The notes beneath the pieces were generated by a model. It ran no database searches and had not been told where the DNA came from. It saw nothing but the letters and a program-made list of their open reading frames with translations. A stretch of 64,000 nt of DNA from contig JAUSJX010000029.1 in NCBI GenBank assembly GCA_030647435.1, positions 62,001 through 126,000 on the forward strand, given 5' to 3'. The position numbers and the translations under genes were made by a program. This stretch comes from Candidatus Rokuibacteriota bacterium (lineage in GTDB: Bacteria; Methylomirabilota; Methylomirabilia; Rokubacteriales; CSP1-6). This document shows positions 37,659 to 42,239 of this stretch, one piece after another. Position 1 is the first letter of the stretch, and each line of letters opens with the position of its first letter.

Positions 37659-38537
37659 ATGACGATCTCGACGGGCACGCTCCAGATGCACAGGCTCCAC
37701 CCCGCCTTCGGCGTCGGAATCGAAGGCGTGGATCTCCGCCAGCCGCTCGATGACGGCACATGGGCGCACATCTGGGAGGCCTTCAACGAGCATTCCCTCC
37801 TGGTCTTCCACGGCCAGCCGCTGTCGGACGACGAGCAGATGCGCTTCAGCCTGCGCTTCGGCCCGCTCGAGACGACCGTCAAGACGCTGGGCAAGGAAGA
37901 CCGCCTGCACCCGAACCTCGTCGGGCTGGCCAACGTGGACGAGGACGGCAAGCTCATGGACTGGACGGACCGGCGCATGGTCTACCAGAGCGGCAACCAG
38001 ATGTGGCACAGCGACTCGTCGTTCAAGCAGGTGCCGGCCCAGGCCTCCCTCCTCTCCGGCCGCCTGGTGCCGCCCGAGGGCGGCGAGACGGAGTTCGTCT
38101 CCTGCCGCGTCGCCTGGGAGGCGCTTGCCCCCGAGATGCAACGCCGGCTCGAAGGCAAGGTCGCCGTCCACTCCTTCGCGTACTCGCGCGGGCTGATCGA
38201 CCCGACGCTGCTCGGCCCCGACGTCCAGCAGGCCCTGCCGCCCGTGCGCCAGGCCCTCGTCCGCGCCAATCCCCTCAACGGAAGGAAGAGCGTCTACATC
38301 GGCTCGCACGCCTCGCACATCGAGGGCACGCCCGTCGAGGAGAGGCGCGCGCTCTTGAAGGAGCTGCTCGAGCTGGCCACGCGCCCGGAGCGCGTGCACC
38401 AGCACGCGTGGCGCCAGCACGACCTCGTCATCTGGGACAACCGCTGCCTGCTGCACCGCGGCCGTCCCTGGGACGCCAAGCGCCACACGCGCGTCATGCA
38501 CCGGACCACCGTCGCCGGCGAGGGACCCACCGCATGA
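37659..38537 (+). CDS. TauD/TfdA-family Fe(II)/2-oxoglutarate dioxygenase
   Basis: 292 residues from ATG 37659 (an ATG at 37638 precedes the purine-rich ribosome site and is less likely). 2-His-1-carboxylate facial triad: HxD in MWHSDSSF, and the distal His with the 2-oxoglutarate-binding Arg in LLHRGRPWDAKRHTRVMHRT. Relatives hydroxylate sulfonates, phenoxy acids or other small acids; substrate unknown. Its TGA overlaps the ATG of the next gene (ATGA), so it is translationally coupled to the UGSC selenoprotein. Confidence 0.93.
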   Translation: MTISTGTLQMHRLHPAFGVGIEGVDLRQPLDDGTWAHIWEAFNEHSLLVFHGQPLSDDEQMRFSLRFGPLETTVKTLGKEDRLHPNLVGLANVDEDGKLMDWTDRRMVYQSGNQMWHSDSSFKQVPAQASLLSGRLVPPEGGETEFVSCRVAWEALAPEMQRRLEGKVAVHSFAYSRGLIDPTLLGPDVQQALPPVRQALVRANPLNGRKSVYIGSHASHIEGTPVEERRALLKELLELATRPERVHQHAWRQHDLVIWDNRCLLHRGRPWDAKRHTRVMHRTTVAGEGPTA

Positions 38538-40183
38538 GCGGCGCGACGACGATCACGGCCCTGAACCCGGTCGGCTTCGCCCCGAAGGTGACCCGCAAGG
38601 CGTTGGCGCCCAGGCTCGATACGCTCGAGGGCAAGACCGTCTACCTGGTGGACTGCCGCTTCGACGATTCCGACGTCTTCCTCAAGCAGATGCAGGCGTG
38701 GTTCGCTTCGCACATGCCGGGCGTGCGCACGGTCTTCAAGCCGATCTCGAGCGTGTACCTGCACGACGACCCGACGACCTGGGAGGAGATCAAGGCGAAG
38801 GGGCACGCCGCCATCCTCGGCGTCGGCCACTGAAGCACCTGCGCGCCGGCGGTCGCCGCGCACGCGATGACGATCGAAGCGGCGTACGGGATCCCCGTCG
38901 TCGCCATGCATACCGACAAGTTCGACCGGGTGGTCCGCTCGGTGGCGGCGGTGAACGGGATGCCGGGGCTCCGGCAGGTGTTCGTCCCCCAGCCCATCAT
39001 GGGCAAGACGGCCGCCCAGCTGCGCGCGTACGTCGACGGCACGGATCCCATCACCGGCCGCCCGGTCATGCAGGAGGTCATCGAAGGACTGACCCAGCCA
39101 TTCGACCCGAAGGACCTGGGCGCTGTCGAGTTCGACCGCTCGACACCCAGGCTCGTCGAGCCCGGCACGGAGGCGGAGCTCCACCGTCTCTTCCTCGACA
39201 ACAACTGGACGGACAAGCTGCCGATCGTGCTGCCGACCGAGGAGCGCGTGGCGGCGATGCTGGCCGCGACGCGCCGCAAGCCTGATGAAGTCGTCGGGCG
39301 CATGCGCTCGACCCACTTCCGAGAGTACTGGGAATACACAGTAGAGAAGGTCGCCGTGAACGCGGTCATGGCGGGGGCGCGGCCAGAGTACTTCCCGGTG
39401 ATCCTGGCGCTCGGCGCGACGGGCGTCACCGCGCGGAGCAGCAGCTCGAGCGCCATGGCGTCCATGGCCGTCGTCAACGGACCGATCCGCGACGAGATCG
39501 GCATGAACGCGGGCACGGGCGCGCTCGGCCCGTACAGCCACGCCAACGCCACCATCGGAAGAGCCTACGGCCTCCTTTCCCAGAACGGCCAGGGCGGCTC
39601 CGTCCCGGGCCACAGCTACATGGGCAACCAGGGCAACAACTACGCCTACAACAGCGTCACCTTCGCCGAGAACGAGGAGCGGAGCCCCTGGGAGCCCTTC
39701 CATGTCCAGCACGGCTTCAAGCCGGCGGACAGCGCGGTCAGCGTCTTCAGCGGCTGCCGCTCGACATCCTTCACGCTCGGGCTCCGCGAGAAGCACTGGC
39801 GCCTACACGTGCGCAGCATGCTGCGCGGCATGGACCCGCACACGCCGCCGACGCTCCTGCTCGATCCCATCGCCGCGCGCCAGTTCATCGACCGCGCGGG
39901 GTTCACGAAGAAGGACGCGCTCATCGACTGGCTCTTCGAGACCGCGACGATGCCGGCCGGCGAGTACTGGGACTCCCAGCTCATCCAGAACTACATCTAT
40001 CCGCGCGCGACCTTCGGCGAGGAGCCGTGGGCATCGAAGCTCAAGGCCGCGCCCGACGAGCTGATCCCGATGTTCCGTCGAGAAGACATCCATGTCGTAG
40101 TCGTCGGGGGTGAGACCAACGGGTACTGGCGCATCATGGGCTGCAACTACCAGAAGACCGTCTCGATCGACGAGTGGCGGTAG
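38534..40183 (+). CDS. UGSC-family selenoprotein (in-frame UGA as Sec)
   Basis: 549 residues when TGA 38831-38833 (codon 100) is decoded as Sec. The N-part (TVYLVDCRFDDSDVFLKQMQ, AAILGVGH) joins without any frame change to U-STCAPAVAAHAMTIEAAYGI and PVVAMHTDKF, giving a U-x-x-C redox motif of the UGSC type. The C-part (residues ~170-549) contains ILALGATGVTARSSSSSAMA and GHSYMGNQGNNYAYNSVTFA. A separate gene starting at 38867 would lack the motif. A GGUC-capped stem follows the UGA. Reaction unknown; a selenol redox enzyme is inferred. Coupled to the TauD-like dioxygenase upstream. Confidence 0.88.
38843..38861 (+). promoter_or_regulatory. Candidate bacterial SECIS hairpin (UGSC gene)
   Basis: CGGC (38847-38850), loop GGTC (38851-38854), GCCG (38855-38858). 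It is extended by GCG/CGC (38843-38845 with 38859-38861) past a single bulged C. The loop begins 18 nt after the UGA. Confidence 0.65.
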
Positions 40184-40846: not shown

Positions 40847-41751
40847 CGCGCAAGCCCGCGGTCAGCCTGGCGGCCGCGCCGGGGCGGCGGCGCGCCACCA
40901 TCGAGGTCGCCCAGCGCTTCGAGAAGGAGGGCTTCGCCGGCATCTACTGCCCGAGCTACGGCGACGGCCTGGGGCTCTGCGAGGCGCTGGCGCTCGAGAC
41001 CAAGGAGATCCGGTTCGGGACGTCCATCGCCAACATCTACTCGCGCCACCCCCACGACTACGCGCACACGGCCGCGTTCATCCACGAAATCTCCGGGGGC
41101 CGCTTCCGCTTCGGAATCGGCGTCAGCCACGGCCCCACGCTCGCGCGGCTCAAGGTGACCGCGGGCAAGCCCCTCGAGGACATGCGCCGCTTCGTCACTG
41201 AGCTCGGCGCGGGCGCCAAGCAGGCGGGCGCGCTGCCTCCCATCGTGCTGGCGACGCTCAGGCAGAAGATGGTCGCCCTGGCCGGCGAGATCGCCCAGGG
41301 CGCGGTGTGGGCCAACGCGGCGCGCTCTCACATGGCCGCGTCGCTCAGCCACCTCCCGGCCGCCCTGCGCAGCGACCCCGGCTTCTTCGTCGGCAACATG
41401 CTACCGACCTGCATCGACAACGACAAGTCCGCGGCCGCGGCCGTCAACCGGCGCACGCTGATAAGCTACGTCAAGCTCCCCAACTACCAGAACTACTGGA
41501 TCGAAGCCGGCTTCGAGGATGAGATGCTGGCGATCCGGAAGGCCATCGCCGCCGGCGAGGAGGACCGCATTCCCTCGCTCATGTCCGACCGCTGGCTCTC
41601 GCAGGTCACCCTCTACGGCAGCGCCGCGGAGGTCCGCGACGGCATCGAGGCCTGGTACGCGGCGGGCGTCAACACCCCGATCGTCGTGCCGTCCTCCACG
41701 AAGGGCGGCCAGATGGTCGCCATCCAGGAGCTCATCGACCTTTACCGCTGA
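40843..41751 (+). CDS. LLM-class flavin-dependent oxidoreductase
   Basis: 302 residues from GTG 40843, which overlaps the nitroreductase stop. Luciferase-like TIM barrel with F420/FMN-type features: AQRFEKEGFAGIYCPSYGDG, FGTSIANIYSRHPHDYAHTA, GRFRFGIGVSHGPTLARLKV and the C-terminal YGSAAEVRDGIEAWYAAGVN. Probably a flavin- or F420-dependent monooxygenase or dehydrogenase. A much longer frame start at 40441 only overlaps nitroreductase. Confidence 0.92.
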   Translation: MTRKPAVSLAAAPGRRRATIEVAQRFEKEGFAGIYCPSYGDGLGLCEALALETKEIRFGTSIANIYSRHPHDYAHTAAFIHEISGGRFRFGIGVSHGPTLARLKVTAGKPLEDMRRFVTELGAGAKQAGALPPIVLATLRQKMVALAGEIAQGAVWANAARSHMAASLSHLPAALRSDPGFFVGNMLPTCIDNDKSAAAAVNRRTLISYVKLPNYQNYWIEAGFEDEMLAIRKAIAAGEEDRIPSLMSDRWLSQVTLYGSAAEVRDGIEAWYAAGVNTPIVVPSSTKGGQMVAIQELIDLYR

Positions 41752-41768: not shown

Positions 41769-42239
41769 ATGCTGCGCTACGGGTACGAGGCTCCGGCGTT
41801 CTCCCTCCCCTCGACGAGCGGCCGCGACATCTCGCTGGCCGAGTTCAAGGGCGCATCCGACGTCGTGCTGTTGTTCTACTGCTACGACTGGGGGAACATC
41901 TGAACGCCCGAGCTCCGCGACCTCGGTGAGGTCGCCGGCGAGCTTCAGGCCAAGGGCGCCGTCGTGCTCGGGATCAGCGGGGACACGCCCTTCTCGCACG
42001 CGGAGTACCACAGGCGGCACGCGCTGCCGTTTCCGCTCCTGAGCGACGTGCACCGGAGCGTGATCCAGGCGTACGGCGTGTGGGACGAGGAGCGCAACGT
42101 CGCCTACCGCTCGACGGTCGTCGTGGACCGCGACGGCCGGGTGCGCTGGTCGCAGTCGGGCGACCGGCTGATGACCCGGAGCGGCGCCGAGATCCTCCGC
42201 GTCCTCGACTTGATCCACCGCCTCCGCACGGCGGGCTAG
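41769..42239 (+). CDS. Peroxiredoxin-like selenoprotein (in-frame UGA as Sec)
   Basis: 156 residues when TGA 41901-41903 (codon 45) is Sec. Thioredoxin-fold AhpC/TSA protein: PAFSLPSTSGRDISLAEFKG, VVLLFYCYDWGNI-U-TPELRDL, AVVLGISGDTPFSHAEYHRR, FPLLSDVHRSVIQAYGVWDE and STVVVDRDGRVRW. The U occupies the peroxidatic Cys position (usual C-T-x-E-L). Upstream GAGGA serves the ATG. A later-starting ORF at 41964 lacks the active site. The mRNA after UGA forms an 8-bp perfect stem with a GGU loop, the strongest SECIS candidate here. Reduces peroxides, by family analogy. Confidence 0.9.
41917..41935 (+). promoter_or_regulatory. Candidate bacterial SECIS hairpin (peroxiredoxin gene)
   Basis: GCGACCTC (41917-41924), loop GGT (41925-41927), GAGGTCGC (41928-41935): eight perfect pairs closing a GGU triloop 22-24 nt after the UGA. 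Confidence 0.75.

Follow-up and report, generated by a model that had tools for sequence, protein, structure and literature searches.

A predicted selenocysteine peroxiredoxin subfamily in Rokubacteria that lacks the PxxxT motif

The window, a stretch of 64,000 nucleotides from a genome of the Rokubacteria (phylum Methylomirabilota), contains a peroxiredoxin gene (41769–42239, + strand) whose in-frame UGA codon at 41901–41903 is, judging from comparative sequence evidence, almost certainly read as selenocysteine (Sec). We are highly confident that the product belongs to the Sec peroxiredoxins of the AhpE/BCP-like size class, with the UGA decoded through SelB, tRNA-Sec, and a downstream hairpin, and with peroxide reduction followed by recycling as its probable chemistry. 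Selenocysteine peroxiredoxins are an already known kind of protein; what appears to be new is a Sec-only subfamily without the PxxxT motif that retains the catalytic arginine. Because standard gene finders stop at UGA, the enzyme is likely missed or truncated in databases.

The gene opens with an ATG at 41769 and closes with a TAG stop at 42237–42239, giving a product of 156 amino acids when the TGA is taken as one residue. The original prediction held that this TGA falls exactly on the peroxidatic cysteine and that the sequences on both sides of it share one frame and one AhpC/TSA fold, and aligning the translation to AhpC/TSA proteins with the TGA as U bears out both claims. Pfam AhpC-TSA gives one match over residues 5 to 127 (E = 1.5e-36), uninterrupted by the TGA, and the best PDB sequence alignment places U45 on Cys45 of AhpE from M. 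tuberculosis.

A search of 95 genomes of the phylum at a threshold of 1e-30 yielded 37 matches, 35 of which, from 35 genomes, are full-length members of one family at 57% to 99% protein identity; against the window copy the range is 57% to 97%. Relatives at 67% to 79% protein identity are carried by Candidatus Rokubacteria/Rokuibacteriota MAGs. The other matches are a distant Sec protein from another family of the same class (G001, 45% identity) and one that is interrupted by an assembly gap of Ns (G088). All 35 orthologues have UGA at codon 45, none has TGC, TGT, TAA, or TAG there, and a Cys form of the family was found neither in the 95 phylum genomes nor in 388 genomes sampled across the domain, where further homologues occur only at about 46% identity or below. 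Plasmid-borne homologues have less than 40% identity, taking the best among the matches listed. The family is recovered as one clade with support of 99/99 in a tree with the motif residues masked and 100/100 in the unmasked tree. In ten sequence pairs, dN/dS 3′ of the UGA is 0.15 to 0.37, and the synonymous and non-synonymous differences there resemble those 5′ of it; purifying selection acts on both sides of the codon.

This conservation bears on the possibility that the UGA reflects a nonsense mutation or sequencing error, leaving either a pseudogene or a split pair of genes that restarts after the UGA. A single UGA in one MAG could be an error, and an in-frame ORF with a GTG start is present at 41964, 3′ of the UGA. 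However, the same UGA is common to 35 assemblies, with the frame kept on both sides and dN/dS well below 1 after it, and a downstream start would drop the peroxidatic residue along with half of the active site. The original prediction had argued that a nonsense mutation would not suffice as an explanation, and had named a stop with a separate initiator, or TGC or TGT at this codon, as observations that would count against Sec; instead, all 35 orthologues read through the UGA with the downstream frame kept, and 0 of 35 have TGC or TGT. We therefore reject a nonsense mutation or split gene, both refuted by conservation, and consider their probability negligible.

The host genome (5.79 Mb, 98% complete) contains the genes needed for Sec insertion. 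Its selB scores 380 bits, above the curated cut-off, and its tRNA-Sec scores 71 bits and is called tRNA-SeC with anticodon TCA by ARAGORN. A selA ORF, identified from its sequence beside selB, directly adjoins that gene on the same contig (L025, 7875–9269), and selA, selB, and tRNA-Sec all lie inside about 5 kb. The selD gene (L121, G000:C98:94090-95046) is above its cut-off and, because it contains one in-frame UGA, is itself a selenoprotein candidate. A genome without selA, selB, selC, and selD, which had also been named as grounds for doubt, is thus not what was found. Of the 95 phylum genomes, 84 have a SelB that exceeds its cut-off. Three genomes that bear the peroxiredoxin gene (G076, G077, and G087) gave no full selB, selA, or tRNA-Sec match above cut-off, and G087 is rated 100% complete; since the three loci lie so close together in the host, one assembly gap or missing contig could explain each case.

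Many in-frame UGAs occur in the host genome, as would be expected if UGA were reassigned genome-wide or read as Trp or Cys without Sec machinery. Against this, the gene upstream of the peroxiredoxin ends in TGA (41749–41751), the Sec machinery is complete, including a tRNA-Sec with anticodon TCA, and the in-frame UGAs sit at redox positions. Genome-wide recoding is rejected on these points and seems to us very improbable, leaving Sec insertion as the preferred reading of the codon.

The UGA-containing relatives of the window protein in its own genome are numerous. One in-frame UGA, mostly at a redox position, is present in 13 of the 22 matches (L026–L035); leaving aside the window gene, twelve matches each contain a single UGA, in most cases at the catalytic position. 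Their motifs include UAFC, UPHC, UPTC, UGC, UPKC, PTUAAN, and TPGUSTC, and by sequence the host genome seems to hold a large thioredoxin-fold selenoproteome. Similar short loops, AGUUG or AGGAA, are found at a spacing of 16 to 18 in five of the UGA paralogues (L027, L028, L031, L033, and L034), which suggests that SECIS types may be shared within the host genome. The peroxiredoxin family also agrees with recent hints that Methylomirabilota have some of the largest bacterial selenoproteomes; in one MAG of that phylum, 63 selenoprotein genes have been predicted (Deng et al. 2026, as cited in PMC13188914). In the same gene row as the peroxiredoxin, a 549-amino-acid ORF at 38534–40183 (+) contains an in-frame TGA at 38831–38833 within a GVGHUSTC motif, followed 3′ by a bSECIS-like hairpin. 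This candidate second selenoprotein has an N-terminal region that resembles the UGSC (seleno)protein family NF041046, at a score of 55.9 bits that falls short of the 125-bit cut-off.

Downstream of the peroxiredoxin UGA lies a SECIS-type hairpin, GCGACCUC-GGU-GAGGUCGC (41917–41935, +), with stem strands at 41917–41924 and 41928–41935 and the triloop GGU at 41925–41927. The perfect 8-bp stem and GGU triloop that had been predicted were recovered as 8 perfect pairs, with 21 nt between the UGA and the loop. The free energy of the hairpin is −24.5 kcal/mol in the bSECIS model test, under a generic model that is permissive. Because 62% of random window positions reach −7.5 kcal/mol under the loose published bSECIS model, this model is not discriminating by itself, and by its free energy the hairpin stands out only weakly (z = −1.6). 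Only 0.6% of window positions have a bSECIS-like hairpin whose perfect stem reaches 8 bp or more.

The discriminating evidence is conservation: each of the 35 orthologues has the UGA and keeps the stem in register. Among 35 distinct sequences, 95.4% of stem cells are paired versus 88.4% in column shuffles, and 18 cells are changed on both sides versus 6.9 in shuffles, with sequence relatedness inflating both the covariation counts and the shuffle control; when the strands are slid, only 24% to 45% of stem cells pair. Double-sided changes occur at three pairs. The loop-closing pair is C-G in 13 sequences and G-C in 19, and in four sequences, which represent two genera, the fourth pair changes from A-U to G-C, with the consequence that Asp51 and Val55 of the protein change jointly to Gly and Ala. 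This paired coding change is best explained by RNA pairing. The first base of the loop is G in 35 of 35, even where the codon specifies Val or Ala instead of Gly.

The protein is predicted to adopt a peroxiredoxin fold. The AlphaFold model (pLDDT 88.5, pTM 0.88) starts the active-site helix at U45, so that the peroxidatic residue stands at the helix N-terminus; the active-site loop is its least confident part, with a pLDDT of 71 for the block 41–50. Foldseek ranks AhpE (1xxu) first, with 33% identity, a TM score of 0.89 to 0.91, and an rmsd of 1.5 Å, and VIA gives a Z score of 24.8 to AhpE and of about 25 to many peroxiredoxins. Arg114 (codon CGC, 42108–42110, +) occupies an invariant column and aligns with the conserved active-site Arg of peroxiredoxins in the AhpE alignment. 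The hallmark motif P-x-x-x-T/S-x-x-C(U), however, is replaced in all 35 orthologues by C-x-x-x-G-x-x-U, which in the window protein reads CYDWGNIU and is followed by TPE. Cys38 (codon TGC, 41880–41882, +) takes the position of the Pro, and Gly42 (codon GGG, 41892–41894, +) that of the catalytic Thr/Ser; both are invariant in the family. Cys38 is the only family-invariant cysteine, Cys76 being common in the family and replaced by Ser in the window protein. Because of this replacement, the window protein is best described as a derived peroxiredoxin, assigned by homology, and not as a canonical one.

We surveyed the motif among homologues gathered from one query, setting aside seven UxxC/CxxC thioredoxin-like matches. 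The Cys-form peroxiredoxins from the same searches keep both the Pro and the Thr/Ser in 33 of 33 cases, whereas the 77 Sec forms divide into 26 with both residues kept, 13 missing only the Pro, and 38 missing both; these 38 are the 35 family members and three others. On the masked tree, Pro/non-Pro requires seven changes and Thr/non-Thr two. An independent-pairs test of whether Pro loss goes with Sec had too few supported pairs for significance, and because it is underpowered, Sec-driven relaxation of the motif is treated here as a hypothesis. In L135 (G028), a more remote Sec peroxiredoxin from the class to which the family belongs, Cys likewise replaces the Pro while the Thr is kept (FYCLDWTPGU). 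In G079, a natural Cys form (PLDWTPGCSKCMP, L156) lies inside a Sec clade with the motif PLDWTPGUSTCMP and is apparently a recent Sec-to-Cys change. A peroxiredoxin-like group (L085, L086, L087, L119, and L145) has its UGA three residues upstream of the usual peroxidatic position, in a UxxC motif (FYMGATUGMCRGQL), and is without the peroxiredoxin Arg.

Fast peroxide reduction is held to require the PxxxT motif, and the absence of this motif means that peroxidase activity is not to be assumed for the window protein. One alternative is therefore a selenoprotein that is not primarily a peroxidase, in which the Cys38/U45 pair would act, on a peroxiredoxin scaffold, either as a redox sensor or in thiol/selenol oxidoreduction. 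The invariance of Cys at the Pro position and Gly at the Thr position in 35 orthologues is consistent with such a role, as is the status of Cys38 as the only family-invariant cysteine, and the gene neighbourhoods offer no conserved partner suggestive of peroxide metabolism. A conserved operon was looked for among the orthologue loci, and no general partner was found: the upstream nitroreductase and LLM-class neighbours recur in the closest genome (G059) only, an alpha-hydroxy-acid oxidase adjoins the orthologue in two genomes (L076 and L080), and genes that by their sequence resemble MoxR/DUF58 lie downstream in one subclade. With no neighbour conserved, gene context gives no hint on the reductant. 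On the other hand, Arg114 and the peroxiredoxin fold are retained, the spacing from C to U (i, i+7) matches no known CxxC-like redox motif, and the phylum's other Sec peroxiredoxins also vary at the Pro. We consider the oxidoreductase or sensor role unlikely, and the enzyme is most likely a Sec-peroxidase.

In related families, the peroxidatic chalcogen is known to attack the peroxide, after which either a resolving thiol or an external reductant regenerates the chalcogen. By analogy, SelB and tRNA-Sec, helped by the downstream hairpin, would decode the UGA at 41901–41903 as Sec, and the Sec45 selenolate would reduce peroxide to yield a selenenic acid. Recycling could then use either the invariant Cys38, by way of a selenylsulfide, or an external thiol acting directly. 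Cys38 is a possible resolving thiol: it lies at the base of the active site, seven residues before Sec45, and may resolve or protect the Sec. The high intrinsic reactivity of Sec might render the Pro and Thr of PxxxTxxC dispensable. Extending this to evolution, we tentatively propose, as an idea with somewhat less than even prospects, that Sec freed a Rokubacterial peroxiredoxin from the otherwise universal PxxxT/S constraint, that the Pro gave way to an invariant Cys pairing with Sec45, in a resolving or regulatory role, in a new CxxxGxxU peroxidase subfamily, and that such release recurs among the Sec peroxiredoxins elsewhere in the phylum. In a Sec-only clade without the Pro and Thr, nature itself provides a way to test how much catalysis owes to selenium.

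Among known systems, the 1-Cys peroxiredoxin AhpE of M. tuberculosis (PDB 1xxu/4x0x) is the best match in both sequence and Foldseek comparisons and shares the length class, the peroxidatic residue 45, and the conserved Arg, but has Cys and P-x-x-x-T (PLAFTGIC) where the window protein has Sec and C-x-x-x-G. The PDB and Foldseek rankings suggest a possible grouping with the AhpE subfamily, whereas the VIA Z scores tie the protein with 2-Cys peroxiredoxins. Like the window protein, Eubacterium acidaminophilum PrxU and the marine Sec-Prx (TxxU) have Sec at the peroxidatic position, but their published motif is (Pxxx)TxxU, the motif of Sec peroxiredoxins being given as TxxU or PxxxTxxU (PMC1088965, PMC13188914). 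With the NCBIfam PrxU model, NF040737, the window protein scores 58.3 bits where 270 are required, and no NCBIfam model reaches its cut-off for this protein. A 2026 inventory of selenoproteins, which covers 119 families and subfamilies and uses the Sec motif to tell subfamilies apart, has no CxxxGxxU AhpC/TSA entry (PMC13188914), and none of the papers searched on selenoproteins in Rokubacteria or Methylomirabilota describes the family, a mention in Deng et al. 2026 or Haft and Tolstoy 2025 being possible. The Prx-SUH thiol peroxidase (NF045827, CxxU) is likewise a selenoprotein peroxidase with an altered motif, but its model does not match the window protein at E 0.01 and matches 11 of 36 orthologues only at 1.9e-5 or weaker. 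The peroxiredoxin-like thiol:disulfide selenoproteins (UxxC) and the cd02970 UxxS family share an AhpC/TSA-type domain with Sec; the window protein differs from them in having Sec-TPE and neither UxxC nor UxxS, and its Arg114 and alignment register are those of true peroxiredoxins.
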